Part shown: positions 1,935 to 63,398 of the stretch, piece after piece
Numbering within the stretch: the stretch's first letter is position 1
How the letters are laid out: the number at the start of each line of letters is the position of its first letter
Assembly (NCBI GenBank): GCA_030685065.1
Contig: JAUXQH010000024.1
Coordinates: forward strand, 2,501 to 66,500
DNA: 64,000 nt
DNA from: Pseudomonadota bacterium
GTDB taxonomy: Bacteria; Myxococcota_A; UBA796; SXON01
Reading direction: 5' to 3'
Made by a program: the position numbers and the translations under genes
The notes under the pieces: generated by a model
What the model was told of the DNA's origin: nothing
The model's database searches: none
What the model saw: only the letters and a program-made list of their open reading frames with translations

Positions 1935-3062
1935 ATGCCCCGCTACCCTCGCGCCGACGGGCGCCTCGACTTCAAGAGCCTCACCCTCGACGAGATCGAG
2001 TCCGAGATCGCCGGCCTCGGCTCCGAAAAGTTCCGCGCGCTCCAGGCGTACAAGTGGGTGTGGCAGCGCGGGGCCACCACCTTTGCGGAGATGAAGAACA
2101 TCCTCACGTCCGTTCGCGCCGCGATGGACGAGCGGTTCTACATCCCCGTCCTGGCATGTGACGGCGTGCTCGAAAGCGCGGATGGCACGACCAAGTTCCT
2201 GTGGCGGACGGATGACGGCTACGCCATCGAGTCCGTGCTGATCCCCGACGGGGATCGTCTCACGCTCTGCGTGTCCTCCCAGGTCGGCTGTGCGATGGCC
2301 TGCACCTTCTGCCTCACGGGTGACCTCGGGCTGAAGCGCCACCTGCGCCCCTCCGAGATCGCGAATCAGCCCCTGCAGATCAGGGCCGGCCTCGCGCCGG
2401 GCACCCGCATCACCAACATCGTGATGATGGGCATGGGCGAGCCCCTCCACAACTTCGACAACCTCGTGGCCGCGCTCCGCACCTACCTCTCGGCGGACGC
2501 GCTGGGATTTTCCCACCGGAGGGTCACCGTGTCCACGGTGGGGCTGGTGCCGGCGATGCAGAAGCTCACCGAGCTGCTCCCGGTCAACCTGGCGGTGAGC
2601 CTCAACGCGACCACGGAGGAGCAGCGCCTCGCCGTGATGCCGATCACGCGCAAGCACTCCATGGCGGAGCTCCTCGAGGCGTGCCGCACGCTCCCGATCA
2701 TGCACCACAAGCGCATCACCTTCGAATACGTGATGATGGCCGACTTCAACGACGCGATGGAGGACGCCGCGCGGCTCTTCCTGCTGCTCGGCGGAATGAA
2801 GACGAAGGTCAATCTCATCCCATACAACGAAAACCCGTCGCGCGACATCAAGCGCCCGTCCGACCAGCGGGTCTACGATTTCCAGACCTTCCTCGTGGAG
2901 CGCGGCGTGCAGTGCTCCGTGCGGCACACGCGGGGGATCGACATCAGCGCCGCGTGCGGCCAGCTCGGCAAGGCGGACTCGCGCAGCGCGACGGATTGGT
3001 TTTCCCGGAACCGCGTGATAGGACCGCGCGGCGACGGAGCGATCGGATGCGCATCGGGGTGA
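1935..3062 (+). CDS. rlmN: Dual-specificity RNA methyltransferase RlmN (radical SAM)
   Basis: 375 aa, the usual family length. It methylates C2 of adenosine 2503 in 23S rRNA and of A37 in some tRNAs. The radical SAM cluster motif is CAMACTFC (Cys119, 123, 126). The second essential cysteine, which carries the methyl group, lies in ISAACGQL at about residue 341. MMGMGEPLHNFDN and the C-terminal RHTRGIDI segment also match RlmN. The last ~20 residues after the conserved core are not conserved. The stop overlaps the start of mtnP by 16 bases, which suggests co-transcription. Confidence 0.95.
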   Translation: MPRYPRADGRLDFKSLTLDEIESEIAGLGSEKFRALQAYKWVWQRGATTFAEMKNILTSVRAAMDERFYIPVLACDGVLESADGTTKFLWRTDDGYAIESVLIPDGDRLTLCVSSQVGCAMACTFCLTGDLGLKRHLRPSEIANQPLQIRAGLAPGTRITNIVMMGMGEPLHNFDNLVAALRTYLSADALGFSHRRVTVSTVGLVPAMQKLTELLPVNLAVSLNATTEEQRLAVMPITRKHSMAELLEACRTLPIMHHKRITFEYVMMADFNDAMEDAARLFLLLGGMKTKVNLIPYNENPSRDIKRPSDQRVYDFQTFLVERGVQCSVRHTRGIDISAACGQLGKADSRSATDWFSRNRVIGPRGDGAIGCASG

Positions 3063-3907
3063 TCGGCGGCAGTGGCCTGTACCGGATGGATGGCCTCGAG
3101 GAGGTGCGGGAGGAGCGCGTGTCGACGCCCTTCGGTGACCCCTCGGACGCCCTGATTCACGGGCGCCTGGGCGATGCCGAGCTGGTGTTCCTTCCCCGCC
3201 ACGGCCGGGATCACACCTTCAATCCGACCGAGGTCAACTACCGGGCCAACATCTTCGCCATGAAGACCGCGGGCGTCGAGTGGATCATCTCGGTGAGCGC
3301 CGTCGGGTCGCTCCGGGAGAACATCGCCCCCGGCGAGGTCGTGATCATCGACCAGTTCATCGACCGCACGCGCCTCCGCAAGAACACGTTTTTCGAGAAT
3401 GGCATCGTGGCTCATGTCGCCTTCGGCGACCCCGTGTGCCCGACCCTGCGGCGCTTCCTGCTCGCCTCCGCGAAGGAGGCCGGCGCCGTCCACCACGACG
3501 GTGGGACCTACGTGTGCATGGAGGGCCCGGCCTTCTCCACGCGCGCCGAGTCCAACCTGTACCGGTCCTGGGGTGCCTCCGTCATCGGAATGACGAACCT
3601 GCCCGAAGCCAAGCTGGCGCGGGAGGCCGAGATCTCCTATGCCACGCTCGCTATGGCCACCGACTATGACTGTTGGCATCCCCACCACGACGACGTGACG
3701 GTGGACACCGTGGTGGCCGTCCTCCACGCCAACGCCGCCCTTGCCCGGCGCATCGTCGCCGCCACGGTGCCGAAGATCCTCGCGCACGAGGGGCCCGGCC
3801 CCCAGTCGAGCGCGTTGGCGACCAGCATCCTCACGCCCGCCTCGGCGGTCTCCACCGAGACCCGGCGCGCTCTCGCTCCGCTGATCGGGAAGTACATGCC
3901 GGCCTGA
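3047..3907 (+). CDS. mtnP: 5'-methylthioadenosine phosphorylase
   Basis: 286 aa. It cleaves methylthioadenosine with phosphate to adenine and 5-methylthioribose-1-phosphate in methionine salvage and polyamine recycling. The N-terminal IGVIGGSGLY, the phosphate-site region FLPRHGRDH, and the purine-site sequences CMEGPAFSTRAE and MTNLPEAKLAREAE all match the MTAP/PNP-II family. The ATG at 3047 is used because it begins exactly at the conserved first strand, although the reading frame is open further upstream. It overlaps the end of rlmN. A related purine nucleoside phosphorylase activity cannot be excluded. Confidence 0.92.
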   Translation: MRIGVIGGSGLYRMDGLEEVREERVSTPFGDPSDALIHGRLGDAELVFLPRHGRDHTFNPTEVNYRANIFAMKTAGVEWIISVSAVGSLRENIAPGEVVIIDQFIDRTRLRKNTFFENGIVAHVAFGDPVCPTLRRFLLASAKEAGAVHHDGGTYVCMEGPAFSTRAESNLYRSWGASVIGMTNLPEAKLAREAEISYATLAMATDYDCWHPHHDDVTVDTVVAVLHANAALARRIVAATVPKILAHEGPGPQSSALATSILTPASAVSTETRRALAPLIGKYMPA

Positions 3908-18507: not shown

Positions 18508-19677
18508 ATGATCATCCTGTCCGTGTTGCTGGCCGGCTGCGGCGAATTCGTGGAGCGATTGAATCCCTTCGACAAGGAGGACGACCCCGAGCTGCCACCG
18601 GGAGACTCCAGCGTCGAGCCGCAGCAGCCGGCGCCGGGCGCCGGCTTTCCGTTCGCGGACGATCAGGTCTTCGAGCTCGAGCTGACGCTCCCACCCGCGT
18701 CGGCCGACGCGCTCGTGTACGAGGGCGACTACGTGCCCGCCACGCTCGCGTTCGCGGGCTACGAGGCGGAGACGGGCGTGCGCCTCAAGGGTGCCGGCAC
18801 CTTCGAGAACCTCGACGGCAAGCCGTCCTTGAAGCTGAACTTCGGGGCATTCACGCCGGGCGCGAAGTTCCTCGGCAACGAGCGGCTCACCCTGAACGCG
18901 ATGAAGTACGACCGCACGAAGATGCGGGAGGCCGTCGCCTACCGGATGTACGAGAGGATGGGCGTTCCGTCGCCCCGGCATGGGTACGCGCACCTCACCA
19001 TCAACGGCGAGAACTACGGCCTCTACTCGATCGTCGAGACGCTGGACGAGAACTTTCTCGACCGCGCCTATCCGGACGACGGCAACGGCAACCTGTACGA
19101 TTCGACCTTCATCTACGCGGACCTCACGGGGGCCGGCCTGGTGAATTTCGACCTCCAGGAGGGGGAGCCGGCGGCGTCCCACACCGATCTCCAAGCGTTG
19201 GTCGGCGCGTTGGACGCCGGCAATTTCTGGGATGTCTTCCAGACACGCTTCGACGTGGATGCCACGTTGTCGTTCCTCGCGGTCGATCTCGCGTCTCCGA
19301 ATTGGGACGGATACTCGCGCAACACGAACAACTTCCTCGTCTACCATGCGACCGTCGCGGATCGGTGGTCGATCGTCCCGTGGGGGCAGGACTCCGCCTT
19401 CTACGGAGGTGGGTTGCTGTATGGCGGGGTGAGGGCACGCATCACCGTGGCGTGCCAGAACGATGTGTCCTGCCGGGCCGCGCTCGAGGAGCGGATCAGC
19501 GAGGTGCTCGCGGTGTGGGAAGGGGAGGACCTCCACGGTTGGGCGGCGGTCACCGCGGACCTGATCGATCCGACCTGCCAGGCCGATCCGCGCAAGCAGG
19601 AGGACTGCCAGCAGGAGGACATGTTGGATCTGCTGCTCGAACGCCCCGAGGAAGTGCGGCGCGAGCTTGGCCCGTAG
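18508..19677 (+). CDS. CotH kinase-like lipoprotein
   Basis: 389 aa. A very short signal (MIILSVLLAGC, lipobox Cys11) is followed by a CotH-type domain. Matching features are VRLKGAGTFENLDGKPSLKL, the region RTKMREAVAYRMYERMGVPS, the IVETLDENFL segment, and NWDGYSRNTNNFLVY with IVPWGQDSAF. CotH proteins are atypical kinases that phosphorylate spore-coat or extracellular proteins, and many bacterial homologues are surface proteins of unknown substrate. This one is presumably lipid-anchored outside the inner membrane. Activity is not assured. Confidence 0.82.
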   Translation: MIILSVLLAGCGEFVERLNPFDKEDDPELPPGDSSVEPQQPAPGAGFPFADDQVFELELTLPPASADALVYEGDYVPATLAFAGYEAETGVRLKGAGTFENLDGKPSLKLNFGAFTPGAKFLGNERLTLNAMKYDRTKMREAVAYRMYERMGVPSPRHGYAHLTINGENYGLYSIVETLDENFLDRAYPDDGNGNLYDSTFIYADLTGAGLVNFDLQEGEPAASHTDLQALVGALDAGNFWDVFQTRFDVDATLSFLAVDLASPNWDGYSRNTNNFLVYHATVADRWSIVPWGQDSAFYGGGLLYGGVRARITVACQNDVSCRAALEERISEVLAVWEGEDLHGWAAVTADLIDPTCQADPRKQEDCQQEDMLDLLLERPEEVRRELGP

Positions 19678-20137: not shown

Positions 20138-21199
20138 ATGCACCCGATGGGCTCCCTCCTTGTCGTCGTCCCGGTCCGCGATGGCGCGAACACGCTTCCA
20201 CGCTGCCTCGACGCGCTCGTCCGCGCGCTCCCCGCGGGGGCCGAGATCGTGGTGGTGGATGATGGCTCGCACGACGCCTCGGCGGCCGTCGCCGCGAGGT
20301 TCCCCGTTCGCCTGGTCGCCCACGCGCAGAGCCGGGGCGCGTCCGCGGCGCGCAACACCGGCGCGGCCGCCTCCGACGCCGCCCTGGTGGCCTTCGTCGA
20401 CGCGGACGTGGTCGTGCGTCCCGACGCGCTGACGCGCCTGGTGGCCGTGCTCGCCGCCGAGCCCGAGGCCTCCGGCGCCAACGGGATCCTCTCGCTCGAC
20501 CTCTCCACCCCCGGATGGATGAGCGCTTTTGCCAACACGTCGATCCATTACCAACACCTGTGTCATGGGCTTCGCGTCGCGAGCGCGTTCACGTCTGTTT
20601 GCGTGCTTCGGCGCACGGCGCTGGTGAAGATGGGCGGTTGGGAGGCGGACACCTCGCGGTATGCCGATGACGTCGCGACCCGCTGGCACCTGCCCCCCGG
20701 CTCGATCCTGCTGGACGTGTCCGCCCAGGGCGAGCACCTCAAGCGGGTGTCGGTCACCGGGCTGCTGAAGCACCGCTTCAACATCGGGTGGTTCTACTTC
20801 AACTCGATCGTCTCGCATTGGGGGCAGGTCCGCGAACGGCCGGCCACCACGGTGCTCGCGCTCCGCTACCCGCTCAACACCGCCGCGGCCGCGCTCTCCG
20901 TCGCGCTCCTCCCGGTGATGGCCTGGGCGCCGGCACGTCCCGCGATGCTCCTTCCTGCCGCCCTGTTCGTGCTGGCGAACAGTCGCTTCGCCCTCTTCAC
21001 GCTCCGCGCCCGGGGAGCAGCGGAAGCGCTGATCGCGATCCCTCTCTCCACGATTGAGGGGTTTGCGTACATGTTTGGGATCTGCGCCTCTGCTACCATG
21101 CGCGTTTGGAGGGCTCGTGAGCGCGCACCAACCGCCGTTGGCCCAGTACGCGTTCCGGTACGCGAAGGCCGGCCTGAAGAGCCGCCTCCTGACGCATGA
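20138..21199 (+). CDS. Family 2 glycosyltransferase
   Basis: 353 aa. The GT-A N-terminal domain carries the nucleotide-sugar motif VVVDDGSHD and the DXD-like FVDADVVVRPDAL. SRGASAARNTGAA is the common GT2 helix. The C-terminal third has two or three membrane helices (LNTAAAALSVALLPVMAW, MLLPAALFVLANSRFALF). It is likely an inner-membrane-associated transferase making a lipid-linked or surface sugar. The last 27 codons overlap the next gene in another frame. Start ATG at 20138 (MHPMGSLLVVVPVRDG). Confidence 0.87.
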   Translation: MHPMGSLLVVVPVRDGANTLPRCLDALVRALPAGAEIVVVDDGSHDASAAVAARFPVRLVAHAQSRGASAARNTGAAASDAALVAFVDADVVVRPDALTRLVAVLAAEPEASGANGILSLDLSTPGWMSAFANTSIHYQHLCHGLRVASAFTSVCVLRRTALVKMGGWEADTSRYADDVATRWHLPPGSILLDVSAQGEHLKRVSVTGLLKHRFNIGWFYFNSIVSHWGQVRERPATTVLALRYPLNTAAAALSVALLPVMAWAPARPAMLLPAALFVLANSRFALFTLRARGAAEALIAIPLSTIEGFAYMFGICASATMRVWRARERAPTAVGPVRVPVREGRPEEPPPDA

Positions 21200-22235
21200 G
21201 CCCCTGTTCCTCACCGTGTTCGTCACGGCGAGGTGCGGGCTCAACTGCGGGCACTGCTTCTACCGGGAGGAGCTGCTCAACGGAAACGTCAAGGACGAGA
21301 TGACCTTGGCCGAGTACGACACGTTCACGTCGAAGTGTCCGCCGTTCCCCAAGCTCATCATCACGGGGGGCGAGCCGTTCCTCCGCGCGGATCTGCCGGA
21401 GATCGCCATCCTCTTCTACGAGAATGCCTCGAAGGCCCGCCAGATCACGATCCCGACCGCGGGCACCCACACCGACCGCATCGTGGGCCTCGTGGAGAAG
21501 GTGCTCCTGCCCCGGAAGGATCTCATCCTCGAGATCCAGCTCTCGATCGACGGTGTGGGGGCGGATCACGATGCGGTGCGTGGCAAGGGCCAATTCGACC
21601 GCCTCCTGCGCACCTACGAGGCGCTCAAGCCCATCCAGGACGTGAACGAGGGGCTGCGCATCCGGTTCAACTACACCTTCTCGCGACGCACCCAGGACTG
21701 GTTCGAGAAGACCCACGATTTCGTGACCCGCGAGCTCGGAAACCCGCACTTCGACATGGTCCTGGTGCGCCGTACCACCGTCGACGACGAGTACTGGGGC
21801 CAGGTCGACATCGCCAAGTATCGCAAGGCAACCGAGCTGTTGCAGGCCGCGGAGCTGAAGAAGGCGGGGGACTCCACGTTCCGCCAGCTCCTCGCCCAAC
21901 GCGTGCAGGTCGAGCGGGAGATCATCGCGGAGCACCACCAGGGCAACCCCGTCATGACCGGGTGCCAGGCCGGGACGCTCACCGCGATCGTGAGCGAGAC
22001 CGGGAGCGTGCGTCCGTGCGAGGTCCTCGACACGACGTTCGGAAACCTCCGCGACAACGACTACGACTTCATGAAGTTGTGGGAGAACGGCCTCGCAGAC
22101 GCGCACCGCAAGTTCGTGAAGGACACGGGCTGCTTCTGCACGTTCGAGACCTGCGTGCGGACCACCATGTCCTTTCAGCCGAAGTGGTACGGCAAGATGG
22201 CCGCCACCTACGCGAGACAGCGGCTGGGCCGATAG
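21117..22235 (+). CDS. Radical SAM protein with SPASM-like C-terminus
   Basis: 372 aa. The cluster motif is CGLNCGHC (Cys40, 44, 47), followed by GGEPFLR. The C-terminus has an auxiliary-cluster-like arrangement, GCQAGTLTAIVSETGSVRPC then CFCTFETC, of the SPASM/twitch kind. Such enzymes often modify peptides or sugars. The GTG at 21117 is chosen because GGAGG lies four bases upstream; this gives an 83-base overlap with the glycosyltransferase. The next gene starts at the last base of the stop codon. The substrate is unknown. Confidence 0.86.
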   Translation: MSAHQPPLAQYAFRYAKAGLKSRLLTHEPLFLTVFVTARCGLNCGHCFYREELLNGNVKDEMTLAEYDTFTSKCPPFPKLIITGGEPFLRADLPEIAILFYENASKARQITIPTAGTHTDRIVGLVEKVLLPRKDLILEIQLSIDGVGADHDAVRGKGQFDRLLRTYEALKPIQDVNEGLRIRFNYTFSRRTQDWFEKTHDFVTRELGNPHFDMVLVRRTTVDDEYWGQVDIAKYRKATELLQAAELKKAGDSTFRQLLAQRVQVEREIIAEHHQGNPVMTGCQAGTLTAIVSETGSVRPCEVLDTTFGNLRDNDYDFMKLWENGLADAHRKFVKDTGCFCTFETCVRTTMSFQPKWYGKMAATYARQRLGR

Positions 22236-24502
22236 TGTCCCGGGTCACCCCACGCCGGCTGCTCCCCGCCGCGCTCCTGCTCGCGGCGATGAACCTCGCG
22301 CTCGTCGGTGTGGCCTGGGTCTTCCGGCAGACCGTGGCGCCCGGCTGGAAAAAGGGCCCGCTGATCGATCCCGCGTCGCCCTACGCGCCCGAGAACGCGA
22401 TGGTGCTGTTCGCGTTCGCCGCATGCGTGGCGCTCGACATCTACGTGTTCGTCCTGGCCCTCGCGCGCGCGCGGGCCGCGGATCGCGGAGCGCGCCATTG
22501 GGTCCCATGGGCGGCGCTGCTCCTCGCCGCGTGCGTGTCCGAGCTGGGCGTGCGCGGCTGGCTCGCGGTCGACATGGTCACCTACTTCCGGCCCCACCCC
22601 ACCCTGCACTGGGTGGTCCGCCCGAACCTCCGCGGCTTCGCCAACCTCAAGGGCGGGGGCACGGTCACGACCAACGCCGACGGGATGCGCTTTGCGACGG
22701 TCGCCGGCGCGGAAGCGCCCCGAACCAAGGCGCTGGGGGAGTTCCGGGTGCTCGTCCTGGGGGACTCGTCGAACTTCGGGCACGGGGTCGAGGGGAACGA
22801 GATGTGGTCGAGCGTCCTCGGCGAGCTCGTCCCGCGGTTCGAGGACAAGGCGGTCACCGTGCTCAACGGCGCCACGCCCGGGTGGACCACCTACCAGGCG
22901 GTCGAGTACCTCCGCGAGACGGGCCTCGCCTACGCGCCCGACCTGGTGATCGCCGGCTTCAACAACGATCCGGGGCCGGAGTACCTCTCCGACCGCCAAC
23001 GCGTGCCCGGAGGCTTCGTCCGCGCCGCGAACCGAGTGGCCTTCGGTTTCGAGACCTTCCTGCTCTCGCGCGAGGTGCTGCTCTCGCTCGTCCGCCACGC
23101 CAACGACCGATACGTGCAGCGCGTGGGTGGCGACGAGCCGGTGTATGGAAAGCTCGCCGCCGCGGAGTCCGCGGGGCTGGTTCCGCGCGTGAGCCTCGAC
23201 GAGTTCCTGGCGAACCTCGCCACGCTGGACGACCTCGCGCCCGCGTTCGCCTGGATCGACATGCCGATCAACCGCACCGAGCCGGAGCTGGTCGACCGCT
23301 ACGTCAACCCCAGCTACCGGAGCGCCGCTGCGAAGCTCGCCGCCGAGCGCGAGTTCACGTTGGTCGAGGTCGACAGCCGCTGGAGTCGCACCCGCGAGTC
23401 GGGGCTGTTCCAGGAGGGGCACGTGTTCCACCCGAGCGCGACCGGCCACCGGCGCCTCGCGGAGCAGGTCGCGCAGCAGGTGTTCGCGCGCGGGGGCGAG
23501 ATGTCGGGGCCACCCCCGGCCGCTACCGAACCGACGCTGCGCCTCGGCATCTCCTCGCTCACGCCCGTCCACGCGCACGTCCTCGCCGTGCTCCAGGCCA
23601 TGCCCGAGCTCGCGGCGAAGCATGGGCTCGACCTCGTCGTGTCCGCCTACGCCAGCGGGAAGTCCCAGGGCGAGGACGTCGCGAACGGCGCGCTCGATGC
23701 CTTCTTCACGTGCGAGGTGCCCGCGATCCAGATGATGGAGCGACGCACCGACGTTCGTGCGGTGGCGACGCCCGGGGCGCTCGGCCGGATCGCGGTGGTC
23801 GCGCGCGGGGTCGACACGCTCGCGGGGCTCGCCGGCAGGCGCATCGGCCTCGCGCCGGGCTCCACGCCCGCGATGGACTGGCAGACCTGGAGCACGTCGC
23901 TCGGCGCGACCGTCGTCGAGCTCACGACGGAGGACCTCTTCCCCGCCCTCGTCGAGGGTCGGGTGGACGCCGTGGTCGGCTGGGACCCGTGGGTGGAGGA
24001 CTGGCTCCGGAAGGACCCGGCGCTGCGGGTGGTCGCCGAGCGGACGTTCCGATCGGTGCTCGCGGTGTCCGCGCCGTGGAGCACGGCCGAAGCGAGCCGG
24101 GCGCGCCGGCTCACGGCGTTGGTCGAGGACACGCTGCGCATCGCCGCGGCCGATCGCACCCGATGGGACGCGGCGGTGGCCGCCCTCTCGGGCTGGCCGG
24201 TCGGCGTGGTCGCGGCCGTGGCCGATCAGAACGAGCTCCTCGCGGGCGTGGGCGGCGGCTCGATGGCCTGGACCAAGGGGGACAGCGACGGGCTGGAGCG
24301 GGCCGCGCGCTTCGCGACGCAGGGCCGTGTGAACGGGCTGGAGCTCGTCGGCCTGGAGCTCCTCGAGGGCCACGCGCCGGCGCGGCGGGCGGGCCCCCCC
24401 AGCGACCCCAAGAGCGGCCCCCCGAACGGACCCAAGAGCGGCCCCCCGAACGGACCCAAGAACGGCCCCCCGCGCGGGCCCCCGCTTCCGAAGGCCCCGT
24501 GA
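22235..24502 (+). CDS. Fusion of membrane-anchored SGNH-hydrolase-like domain and ABC substrate-binding-like domain
   Basis: 755 aa. Three N-terminal hydrophobic segments (~9-29, 54-77, 90-108) are followed by an SGNH-like domain with the GDSSNFGHGV nucleophile block (~176-185) and a C-terminal FHPSATGHRRLAEQV block. From about residue 430 the chain becomes an NMT1/TauA-like periplasmic binding protein: LRLGISSLTPVHAHVLAV, DAFFTCEVPAI, RIGLAPGSTPAMDW and VDAVVGWDPWVEDWL. It ends in a Gly/Pro/Lys repeat tail. No stop separates the two halves, but an internal ATG at 23501 could start the second as its own protein. The start GTG overlaps the radical SAM stop. Confidence 0.8.
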   Translation: MSRVTPRRLLPAALLLAAMNLALVGVAWVFRQTVAPGWKKGPLIDPASPYAPENAMVLFAFAACVALDIYVFVLALARARAADRGARHWVPWAALLLAACVSELGVRGWLAVDMVTYFRPHPTLHWVVRPNLRGFANLKGGGTVTTNADGMRFATVAGAEAPRTKALGEFRVLVLGDSSNFGHGVEGNEMWSSVLGELVPRFEDKAVTVLNGATPGWTTYQAVEYLRETGLAYAPDLVIAGFNNDPGPEYLSDRQRVPGGFVRAANRVAFGFETFLLSREVLLSLVRHANDRYVQRVGGDEPVYGKLAAAESAGLVPRVSLDEFLANLATLDDLAPAFAWIDMPINRTEPELVDRYVNPSYRSAAAKLAAEREFTLVEVDSRWSRTRESGLFQEGHVFHPSATGHRRLAEQVAQQVFARGGEMSGPPPAATEPTLRLGISSLTPVHAHVLAVLQAMPELAAKHGLDLVVSAYASGKSQGEDVANGALDAFFTCEVPAIQMMERRTDVRAVATPGALGRIAVVARGVDTLAGLAGRRIGLAPGSTPAMDWQTWSTSLGATVVELTTEDLFPALVEGRVDAVVGWDPWVEDWLRKDPALRVVAERTFRSVLAVSAPWSTAEASRARRLTALVEDTLRIAAADRTRWDAAVAALSGWPVGVVAAVADQNELLAGVGGGSMAWTKGDSDGLERAARFATQGRVNGLELVGLELLEGHAPARRAGPPSDPKSGPPNGPKSGPPNGPKNGPPRGPPLPKAP
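24392..24463 (+). repeat. 24-bp in-frame tandem repeat
   Basis: Three copies of a 24-base unit (GGCCCCCCGAACGGACCCAA plus four bases) encode GPPNGPKS-type octapeptides at the C-terminal tail of the SGNH/substrate-binding fusion. A partial fourth unit follows. Confidence 0.88.
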
Positions 24503-27098: not shown

Positions 27099-28013
27099 AT
27101 GCTGCCCTTCACGCTCCTGATGTCCCTCCTCTTGGGCCAGGCCTTCGCCCGCGCCGACATCGCCATCCTCGTGTCGGACCCGCTCGAGGCCTACGAGGCG
27201 CCCGTCGCCCAGTTCCAGGACGCCATCGGGCGCTCCACCACCGTGTTCCAGATCGACGGAAGTCGTGCGCGCGCCGACTCCATCGTCAAGCAGCTGCGGG
27301 CCGACCTGCCCCCGCTCGTCTTCGCCGTCGGCGCCAAGGCCGCGTACATCGCCGTCAACGAGCTCCCCGAGGTGCCCGTCGTCTATGCGTTGGTGCTCGA
27401 GCCGGGCAAGTACGGCATCTCCGGGACCCAGGTGACGGGGGTCTCGATGGAGGTGCCGGCCGAGGCCACGCTCTCCCAGTTCCAGCTGTTCGCGCCCGCC
27501 GTCAAGCGGCTCGGCGTCCTGCTCTCCACCAGCAACAAGTCCCCCCAGGTCACCGAGGCGCTCGCGTCGGCGCGCCGCCTCGGCTTCGAGACCTCGGTGC
27601 AGCGCGTGACCAACGCGCGCGATCTACGCGCCGCGTGGCAACGCACGGCCGGAAACGTGGACGCCCTCTGGCTCCTCCCGGATCCCGTGGTGATGACGCC
27701 CGATGTCTTCCGCTGGCTGAGAAACGACACCATGCGTCGCCGCGTGCCGATGCTCGCGAGCACCGAGAACCTCGTCCGAGCCGGCGCGCTCCTCTGTGTC
27801 GCCCCGGATCGCCAGGTGGCCGGGCAGCAGGCGAGCGACCTGGCCCGCCGCATCCTCGAGGGCGGCGAGCTCCCCGGCACCATCGAGCCGCCCGCGCCGG
27901 GCTCGATGCGCGTCGTGCTCAACCGGGACACGCTCGACAGCATGGGCATCGCGGTGGACGAGATCATGCTCGACTTCGCGGACGAGGTCGTGCGCGAGAC
28001 CGAGGGCCGCTGA
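27099..28013 (+). CDS. ABC-transporter-type periplasmic substrate-binding protein (PF04392-like)
   Basis: 304 aa. The signal peptide MLPFTLLMSLLLGQAFARA is followed by the two-lobe fold typical of the ABC_sub_bind family (TrpX/DUF534-like): IAILVSDPLEAY, FAVGAKAAYIAVNE, PVVYALVLEPG, TGVSMEVPAEATL and LPDPVVMTPDVFRWL. No permease or ATPase gene is adjacent. In several proteobacteria orphan members sit next to TonB-dependent receptors or signalling proteins, and a receptor lies about 1.8 kb downstream here. The ligand is unknown. Confidence 0.85.
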   Translation: MLPFTLLMSLLLGQAFARADIAILVSDPLEAYEAPVAQFQDAIGRSTTVFQIDGSRARADSIVKQLRADLPPLVFAVGAKAAYIAVNELPEVPVVYALVLEPGKYGISGTQVTGVSMEVPAEATLSQFQLFAPAVKRLGVLLSTSNKSPQVTEALASARRLGFETSVQRVTNARDLRAAWQRTAGNVDALWLLPDPVVMTPDVFRWLRNDTMRRRVPMLASTENLVRAGALLCVAPDRQVAGQQASDLARRILEGGELPGTIEPPAPGSMRVVLNRDTLDSMGIAVDEIMLDFADEVVRETEGR

Positions 28014-61232: not shown

Positions 61233-63398
61233 TCACACCCCTACCAACCCCGCTCGCCGCACCTTCGCGAACGCGGGCGCGAAGCGCTCCCAGTCCCCCG
61301 GGAACGCCGCGCGGGCGTCGGTCCAACGCAGGGGCGGGCGCCCGGGCGTCGCGGCGTCGAGCACCTCGGCGAGCCACGCCATCGCGTCGCGTCGGGCCTT
61401 GACGCGGGTGGTGTCGTCCCGCGTGTGGAGGAGCAGGGCGCCGTCGTCCTCCAGCACCTCGCCACCGAGCCAGAGGAGCCGCTCGCCGGGCTCGGGAGCA
61501 GGGGCCGCGAGCGCCTTCGCGATGCGGTCGGGGGGCTCGCGGGTGGGCGCCACGCTCCCTCCGCCCGGGTGTGTGTCGAACCAGGTGTGCGCGGGGCGAT
61601 CCAGCTCGCGACCCCGCATCCACGCCTTGAGCGCGCGGGGGAGCACAGCGTCGTACTTGTCCGGATCGGCCCCCGTGGCATCGACGTGGAGCATGTCGTT
61701 CGCGGCGAAGAGGTGCTTGGAGAGGCGCTTGGACAATGGGGGGATGGTGACACCGTAGCGGGTGGGATCGACCGCGATCCCGGAGTGGCGTGTCAACACG
61801 AAGCGGTGCCAGAACGCCGAGCTCAACAGATCGGCGGCAAACAGTTGGCGCACGATCTCGAGCGAGTCCACCGTCTCCTCTTCGGTCTGGGTGGGAAATC
61901 CGTACATCAGGTAGGCGTGCACCATCACGCCGGCCTGTCGAAAGGCGCTCGCCGCGATCGCCACCTGCTCGATGGTGACGCCCTTCTCCATGCGCGCGAG
62001 CAGCCGGTCCGACGCGACCTCGAGCCCGCCGGTGACAGCGATGAGGCCCGCCGCGGCCAGGAGGCGACAGACGTCGGGCGTGAACGCGGCCTCGAAGCGG
62101 ATGTTGCCCCACAGTGTCACCGTCGAACGCCGCTGCAAGAGCTCGAGCGCGAGATCGCGGAGGCCCCGGGGCGGCGCCGCTTCGTCCACGAAGTGGAAGC
62201 CGGACTGACCGGTGTCACGAACCAGCTCGTCCATCACGTCCGCGAGGCGCTCGGCGCGCGCGGGGACATAGCGGGCGATGTAGTCGAGCTGGATGTCGCA
62301 GAAGGAACACTTGCGCCAATAGCAACCGTGGGCGAGCGTGATCTTGTTCCAGCGCCCGTCGGACCAGAGGCGGTGGGCGGGGTTGAGGCTGTCGACCAAC
62401 TGGAGATAGTGGTCGAGGCGAAGGTCACCGTAGAACGCGGCGATCGCGGCGGGGATATCTGCCTTGGTCGCGGGCGTGACGTCCGCGCTGCCTCCGGGGG
62501 CGTTGCGGGGGGAGCCCCCCGCCCCAACAACCGGAGCGTCCCAAATCAACCCGGCGCGCGTACGTGTCCGGTGCCGACGATCCGTGCCGCCCTCGAGGTG
62601 TTCGAGGATCGCCAGGAGCGGCCCCTCGCCGTCGTCGTAGGCGAGCGTGTCGACGTAGTCCCAGAGCCGCGGCTCCTGCATGTCCCGCAGCTCCGTGTTG
62701 ACGTAGCCGCCACCCAGGATGACGTGGACGCCACGGGCGCGCAGACGGCGGCCGATGCGGAGGGCGCCGTAGAGGTTGCCGGGGAAGGGGACGGAGAGGC
62801 CCACCACGTCGGCCTCGAGGGTGTCCGCCAGCTCGTCGAGCCAACCGTCGAGCAGGGTCGTGCGTGCGAGGCGCGTTGCCAATGCGTCGAACGACGCGGG
62901 ACCGACCGCGAGGTGGTGTTGGTAGCGGATGAGCGAAAATCCCTCGTCGACACAGGAGGTGACCAGGTCGGCCAGGTCTGCGAGGTAGAGCGTGGCGAGG
63001 TGACGGGCCGCGTCGTCCACCGCGAGGGGACCGAACCCCTCGAGGTCCGCGGCGGCGGATCGGGGGCCGCGCGGCAGGAACGGGGTGTCGAGGAGGCGCG
63101 GGGCGAGCGTGCGGTCCTTCCCCTGGAGGAAGCGGATGACGGGGCCGATCGCGGCCTCGTGGGCCTCCCGCAGGGCGATTGCGCGCCAGGCGGGCTCCGG
63201 GAGGTCATCGGCGTCGGCGAGGGAGTCGAAGACCTCGGCGAGACCGGCCTTGGAGTACAGGCGCAGCACCCACTCGATGCCGAGGTCACGCTGGGTCGTC
63301 GCGATGCCGTGATCGCGCAGCGCGCGCGCGAGGTAGGCGGGGCCCGGGTAGGGGGCGTTGAGCTGCGTCAGCGGCGGCAGCACCAGGGCCAGTTGCAT
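61233..63398 (-). CDS. Radical SAM protein with cobalamin-binding-like N-terminus (CX4CX2C)
   Basis: 721 aa. The N-terminus resembles B12-dependent radical SAM proteins (LALVLPPLTQLNAPYPGPAYLARAL; VVGLSVPFPGNLYGALRIGR; VILGGGYVNTEL). The cluster motif is CYWRKCSFC, that is Cys359, 364 and 367, with four residues between the first two cysteines rather than three. DEAAPP, a GGLEVASDRLLARMEKGVT segment and the FPTQTEEE loop belong to the TIM barrel. A ~15-residue insert at ~289-303, between the two domains, is encoded by a REP-like DNA element. The function is unknown. Confidence 0.85.
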   Translation of the reverse strand: MQLALVLPPLTQLNAPYPGPAYLARALRDHGIATTQRDLGIEWVLRLYSKAGLAEVFDSLADADDLPEPAWRAIALREAHEAAIGPVIRFLQGKDRTLAPRLLDTPFLPRGPRSAAADLEGFGPLAVDDAARHLATLYLADLADLVTSCVDEGFSLIRYQHHLAVGPASFDALATRLARTTLLDGWLDELADTLEADVVGLSVPFPGNLYGALRIGRRLRARGVHVILGGGYVNTELRDMQEPRLWDYVDTLAYDDGEGPLLAILEHLEGGTDRRHRTRTRAGLIWDAPVVGAGGSPRNAPGGSADVTPATKADIPAAIAAFYGDLRLDHYLQLVDSLNPAHRLWSDGRWNKITLAHGCYWRKCSFCDIQLDYIARYVPARAERLADVMDELVRDTGQSGFHFVDEAAPPRGLRDLALELLQRRSTVTLWGNIRFEAAFTPDVCRLLAAAGLIAVTGGLEVASDRLLARMEKGVTIEQVAIAASAFRQAGVMVHAYLMYGFPTQTEEETVDSLEIVRQLFAADLLSSAFWHRFVLTRHSGIAVDPTRYGVTIPPLSKRLSKHLFAANDMLHVDATGADPDKYDAVLPRALKAWMRGRELDRPAHTWFDTHPGGGSVAPTREPPDRIAKALAAPAPEPGERLLWLGGEVLEDDGALLLHTRDDTTRVKARRDAMAWLAEVLDAATPGRPPLRWTDARAAFPGDWERFAPAFAKVRRAGLVGV
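62491..62530. repeat. GC-rich REP-like element, copy 2 (inside coding sequence)
   Basis: On the reverse complement it reads TTGTTGGGGCGGGG, then a CCCCCCGCAACGCC core and CGGAGG, matching the element at 7592-7625 with small indels. It adds a Gly/Pro/Ser-rich linker in frame to the radical SAM protein. Opposite orientation to copy 1. Confidence 0.7.

Follow-up and report, generated by a model that had tools for sequence, protein, structure and literature searches.

Importer binding proteins are familiar chiefly as separate delivery components; SGNH enzymes are familiar as proteins that move acyl groups in the envelope. What, then, does a protein do that carries both in one chain? The question is raised by a gene of a Myxococcota-type bacterium (GTDB lineage Myxococcota_A, UBA796, SXON01) on contig JAUXQH010000024.1 of assembly GCA_030685065.1, of which a stretch of 64,000 nucleotides, here called the window, was analysed. 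The gene is one frame of 755 codons, open from GTG to stop on the forward strand (Table 1), and its product combines complete SGNH and binding domains, the latter of the SsuA/TauA fold, with three predicted membrane helices. The best reading is that this fusion is part of a co-inherited envelope-modification gene set. The fusion itself may be an enzyme of the periplasm that transfers or removes acyl groups and holds its small-molecule substrate with a binding domain of its own, a reading to which we give a probability of about 0.4.

Conservation of the fusion

An earlier note on this DNA, made from the sequence alone, stated that no stop codon separates the two domains, and this is borne out. 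The open frame alone is weak evidence because the DNA is GC-rich and the opposite strand is also open over the same stretch, for 991 codons. Conservation is more telling. In a database search with residues 1-720 as the query, which scored only the 7994 candidates sharing most words, the fusion spans at least 91% of the query in 79 of 89 matches, the protein itself included. A search of 71 genomes from the class located the full-length fusion in 13 of them, at 14 places in total (14 of its 28 rows cover the SGNH part only and were left out), and no split form was seen in these genomes at E<=1e-30. The single-chain architecture is thus real and conserved, which excludes read-through and sequencing error.

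A start within the chain, at ATG 23501 (Met423), had been considered in the earlier note. Met is found at that column in 3 of 74 rows, and anywhere in residues 418-433 in 10 of 74, in an alignment of the window protein with 73 of the 78 non-self matches of at least 91% coverage (P0011, P0012, P0013, P0043 and P0067 were left out). A product beginning there would be without an export signal, since no 19-residue hydrophobic window above 1.6 exists in the window protein beyond residue 103.

The note had also held that homologues encoded as two genes would speak against a single chain. Such an arrangement was encountered once, in a distant phylum. An Omnitrophota contig (L021) has one gene for the SGNH part (109-2088) and another, overlapping it by a single base, for the binding part (2088-3089). 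As read from its sequence, the binding gene has a hydrophobic segment of its own at its start; the binding domain of the fused protein lacks a separate export signal. Because of this segment, the two-gene form argues for a working pair of SGNH and binding proteins and not for internal initiation in the window. The junction analysis covered 10 of 13 loci (L012, L019 and L020 were left out), and genes in the fetched loci were called with a codon-score script, not a gene finder.

The structure model of the chain is confident (predicted local distance difference test, pLDDT, 92.7; predicted template modelling score, pTM, 0.90) and contains both the SGNH and the SsuA folds, in agreement with the domain layout first proposed. 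The C-terminal "repeat tail" of that proposal turned out to be a Pro/Gly-rich stretch. It is probably not a domain, given a pLDDT below 50 at residues 727-755 and 49% gaps among relatives over residues 716-755 of the alignment.

The SGNH domain and the ligand pocket

In the Pfam scan, PF00657 reaches its cut-off (23.6 bits versus 23.6), whereas PF13472 (31.9 versus 32.9) and NMT1_2 (18 versus 24.7) stay below theirs. Ser178, Gly216, Asn244 and His399, which by our own reading of the alignment represent blocks I, II, III and V in that order, are invariant in 74 of 74 rows.

By fold and by profile, the binding domain best matches SsuA and TauA. The SsuA family TIGR01728 matches with an E value of 5.7e-11 and 42.2 bits, far under its cut-off of 163.5. 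In TauA, as passages of PMC6906117 describe, Gln30 and the backbone of Gly61, Gly79 and Thr132 hold the sulfonate, and Glu106, Thr132 and Asp205 hold the amine; Trp176 also lines the site, and Asp205 is absent from SsuA as well. By a profile alignment to TauA, from which pocket positions were read by eye, Gly61, Thr132 and Trp176 correspond to Gly475, Thr544 and Trp583 of the fusion, each invariant in the 74 rows, and Gly79 to Cys493 (71 of 74); the alignment does not reach Gln30. Of the residues that bind the amine, Glu106 is replaced by Ala520 (69 of 74) and Asp205 by Ser607 (74 of 74), and a taurine site was accordingly dropped. With most of the anion-holding frame retained and the amine-binding acids lost, the ligand is probably a molecule with an anionic head other than taurine.

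Genes that occur with the fusion

Candidate partners were seen at locus L009. There, genes for two small membrane proteins (smA and smB) follow the fusion, as do a gene for a B12 radical SAM protein and a second SGNH gene, which has a DGHW motif; the other strand carries a PEMT-family methyltransferase and a HEAT-repeat gene. The second SGNH gene (E<=1e-40) was found in 13 of the 71 genomes, namely 12 of the 13 fusion carriers and 1 of the 58 others. For smB (E<=1e-8) the count is 12 genomes, 11 of them carriers; in G048 the class search missed smB, and a 29% relative lies beside the second SGNH gene. A second copy of the B12 radical SAM gene is present in 16 genomes, including 12 carriers, and the thirteenth carrier has a contig-edge fragment of it beside smB. 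This set was delimited by a threshold chosen after the rows had been seen (at least 73% identity, or cluster position for G055); the first copy reaches 72% identity, with one contig-edge piece of G000 at 81%.

Fisher tests of co-occurrence with the fusion gave 1.3e-11 for the second SGNH gene, 3.5e-10 for smB, 1.7e-9 for the B12 copy and 1.3e-6 for the SPASM-type radical SAM gene that adjoins the fusion in the window. In the window's family (22 genomes) the values are 2.3e-4, 2.3e-4, 0.0048 and 0.043, respectively, and in the next two carrier families (12 genomes) they are 0.010 for the second SGNH gene, 0.030 for smB and 0.071 for the radical SAM gene. These values are guides, not probabilities, because the genomes are related. 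By such patterns in the genome sequences the second SGNH gene, the two small membrane proteins and the B12 second copy are better-supported partners than the GT2 and SPASM-type radical SAM genes. The genome from which the window comes has its partner genes on another contig (L065), with no fusion in the 17 kb of it that was analysed.

The smB protein gave no Pfam match above cut-off. It carries LTPAQ, which is reminiscent of the LTxxQ motif of Spy/CpxP. At L015 (4689-7592, plus strand), and also at L091, smA is appended to the C-terminal end of the SGNH-binding fusion in one frame of 967 residues. The second SGNH protein was considered as an AlgX and this was dropped: it passes the Pfam ALGX cut-off but has the order S-G-N-H, and passages of PMC9487903 describe AlgX proteins as circularly permuted (H-S-G-N). 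The first copy of the B12 radical SAM gene is widespread and has a PEMT-like neighbour in the four of four loci viewed (L114 7445-9494, L115 7680-9750, L116 8179-10197 and L117 8759-10785), which hints at a shared pathway related to lipids. L016 (2277-6876, minus strand) and L019 (17104-20278, plus strand) carry, within 10 kb of the fusion, a carbamoyltransferase gene with one or two B12 radical SAM genes; the carbamoyltransferase of L016 matches PF16861 and PF02543.

Neighbouring genes in the window

The fusion had been described as overlapping the SPASM-type radical SAM gene by one base, and that gene as overlapping a GT2 gene. Both overlaps are present. The TAG of the radical SAM gene (22233-22235) ends on the first base of the fusion's GTG, and GTG 21117 is the most likely start of the radical SAM gene, given that its relative at L057 begins with ATG at the matching residue; with this start it shares 83 bases with the GT2 frame.

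TABLE 1. Features of the fusion gene and its neighbours in the window
Feature	Position	Strand	Basis
GT2 glycosyltransferase gene	20138..21199	+	PF00535, 83.8 bits
SPASM-type radical SAM gene	21117..22235	+	PF04055, 36 bits; SPASM 18.9 bits, below cut-off 21.5
SGNH + binding-domain fusion gene, 755 aa, GTG start	22235..24502	+	Frame; conservation across database and class genomes
Predicted membrane helix 1, residues 6-30	22250..22324	+	Model secondary structure; hydropathy peak 17-23
Conserved loop, helix 1 to helix 2, residues 31-51	22325..22387	+	W38, K40, G41, P42 and Y50 invariant in 74/74 rows
Predicted membrane helix 2, residues 52-81	22388..22477	+	Model; hydropathy
Predicted membrane helix 3, residues 90-112	22502..22570	+	Model; single weak hydropathy peak at 103
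SGNH domain, residues 169-418	22739..23488	+	
Predicted nucleophile Ser178 in GDSS	22766..22768	+	Motif; alignment
HVFH motif, residues 396-399	23420..23431	+	74/74 rows
Variable Pro-rich linker, residues 419-433	23489..23533	+	Mean identity 33%
SsuA/TauA-fold binding domain, residues 434-715	23534..24379	+	
Pro/Gly-rich tail, residues 716-755, predicted disordered from 727	24380..24499	+	Model; alignment

The functional link of these two genes to the fusion, and the idea that the three-gene set recurs elsewhere, hold only in part. At E<=1e-60 the radical SAM gene occurs in 7 of the 71 genomes, all seven of them fusion carriers, and relatives of both genes stand in the Omnitrophota cluster that has the split form; on the other side, 6 of the 13 carriers are without it, and it adjoins the fusion only in the window's genome, lying on a different contig in the other six. 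In the window's family it is found in 2 of 22 genomes at E<=1e-20. The view that GT2 and radical SAM genes are the main partners is thereby weakened. The two do form a pair with each other: they are neighbours in five of the seven genomes, are fused in the sixth (L102, 7324-9417, minus strand, a single 697-residue frame) and were not recognised as neighbours in the seventh (L098). Downstream of the split pair in L021 are B12 radical SAM, GT2, SPASM radical SAM, FAD oxidoreductase and PMT_2 genes, the GT2 and SPASM radical SAM genes being the relatives of those in the window; the same stretch holds a gene of probable aminotransferase type and a further, probable GT2 gene.

Upstream of the GT2 gene is a CotH-kinase gene (18508-19677, plus strand; PF08757), and a 38% paralogue of it (L065, 9583-10896) follows the second SGNH gene in the partner cluster of the window's genome. 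The window also holds another binding-protein gene (27099-28013, plus strand; ABC_sub_bind, PF04392, 98.8 bits) and a 721-residue frame (61233-63398, minus strand) that clusters with B12 radical SAM genes.

A model for function and its alternatives

In the reading that we prefer, the fusion protein would be anchored by its three predicted helices and act outside the inner membrane. Its binding domain would hold the small molecule on which the SGNH domain works, and the latter would add an acyl group to this captured molecule or remove one, together with the second SGNH protein. Partners of the radical SAM, GT2 and methyltransferase types could build an envelope lipid or glycan precursor inside the cell, with the fusion tailoring the product, which may be a lipid or be linked to one, as the frequency of B12 radical SAM and PEMT-type neighbours hints. 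The surface glycan or peptide pathway suggested in the earlier note may apply. We infer the periplasmic side, the ester chemistry of the SGNH domain, the capture of a small ligand, the role in envelope lipid or glycan and the product. The binding domain may once have belonged to an importer and been recruited to hold the substrate, comparable to the carbohydrate-binding module that AlgX carries on its SGNH domain. More tentatively, the fusion could be a self-loading envelope acyl enzyme, in which the binding protein of an importer left transport and became joined to a membrane SGNH enzyme as the arm that holds its substrate. It would then be central to an undescribed two-SGNH system, inherited as a set (with B12 and SPASM radical SAM, GT2 and two small membrane proteins), that makes a surface lipid or glycan in Myxococcota-type bacteria.

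Several observations weigh against the preferred reading. Only 5 of the 14 fusion loci have the second SGNH gene at a distance of about 3 kb or less; at two more the HEAT gene alone adjoins the fusion, and at the remaining seven, one of which is a 3-kb contig, neither gene was recognised in the DNA available. G007 belongs to the same genus and carries smB and the second SGNH gene with no match to the fusion, and the B12 second copy occurs without the fusion in four genomes, G002, G003 and G005 among them. In three relatives, P0085-P0087, the chain stops behind the SGNH domain at a length of 433-442 residues, which suggests that the binding domain can be absent or separate. MBOAT genes, the usual acyl suppliers of such enzymes, decide nothing, since 64 of the 71 genomes (and 13 of 13 carriers) have them. 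Within the SGNH domain, His396 stands in all 74 rows at the block V position, three before His399, that is usually acid; passages of PMC9487903 give Asp as usual there and describe the acid as absent in some SGNH members.

The binding domain could instead be a sensor whose ligand switches the SGNH domain on or off and is not the substrate. Ser440, His446, Gln478 and Thr544 are invariant in the alignment, so a conserved pocket fits this idea, and the high pTM of the whole chain may indicate a fixed arrangement of both domains; a Pfam scan of the chain found no regulatory or signalling domain, and we hold a sensor to be unlikely. A chain of two enzymes, in which the binding-fold domain is itself catalytic as in Thi5, MqnD and DszB, seems quite unlikely: the domain best matches the binders SsuA and TauA by fold and profile, the comparison with the three enzymes being one of folds. 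It is improbable that the protein is a scavenging receptor, whose SGNH domain frees a compound that the SsuA-type domain hands to an ABC importer encoded elsewhere. Permeases of the matching Pfam family are encoded somewhere in all 11 carriers searched (G052 and G054 were outside the search), but among the matches listed none is near the fusion, the nearest being about 25 kb away in G004, the only carrier with one on the fusion's contig, and a delivery protein would not usually be fused and permanently anchored in the membrane. That the chain is two proteins in life, either because translation starts internally near 23501 or because misassembly erased a stop codon, can practically be discarded: the Omnitrophota gene pair and the SGNH-only relatives are set against the same fusion in 13 genomes, a Met that is not conserved and a product without an export signal.

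Comparison with known systems

Both domains of the fusion belong to known superfamilies. No description of an SGNH and SsuA/TauA-fold fusion was found in the openly licensed literature, and a literature search on binding-protein-fold enzymes likewise found none in openly licensed papers. If the preferred reading is true, a conserved single chain of binding protein and SGNH enzyme would be a new way to supply an envelope enzyme with its substrate, and the genes inherited with it would form a short list from which to seek the product of the set.

Thi5, MqnD and DszB resemble the binding domain, by fold alone, in using this fold outside transport; they are not known to be fused to SGNH domains. 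Unlike the SsuA/TauA alkanesulfonate binding proteins, the binding domain here is joined to a membrane domain of the SGNH enzyme type, has the taurine amine-binding acids replaced and, among the matches listed for the 11 carriers, has no importer genes beside it. The fusion differs from TesA-type GDSL/SGNH esterases in its membrane anchor, its second domain and its His in place of the block V Asp. The MBOAT-SGNH and AT3-SGNH acyltransferases (PatAB and OatA) share with it an SGNH domain outside the membrane, as parts of PMC12148441 describe, whereas the Pfam scan found no MBOAT or AT3 domain in the fusion chain, which has only three predicted helices. There is a parallel in layout with alginate O-acetylation, in which AlgX, according to passages of PMC4148444, joins an SGNH domain to a C-terminal carbohydrate-binding module and works in the periplasm with a second SGNH protein, AlgJ. 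AlgX is permuted and carries a DxH motif (passages of PMC9487903), whereas the fusion has the order S-G-N-H, HxxH and an SsuA-fold domain in place of the carbohydrate-binding module; like AlgX, it would combine an SGNH domain, a C-terminal recognition domain and a second SGNH partner on what is presumably the periplasmic side.

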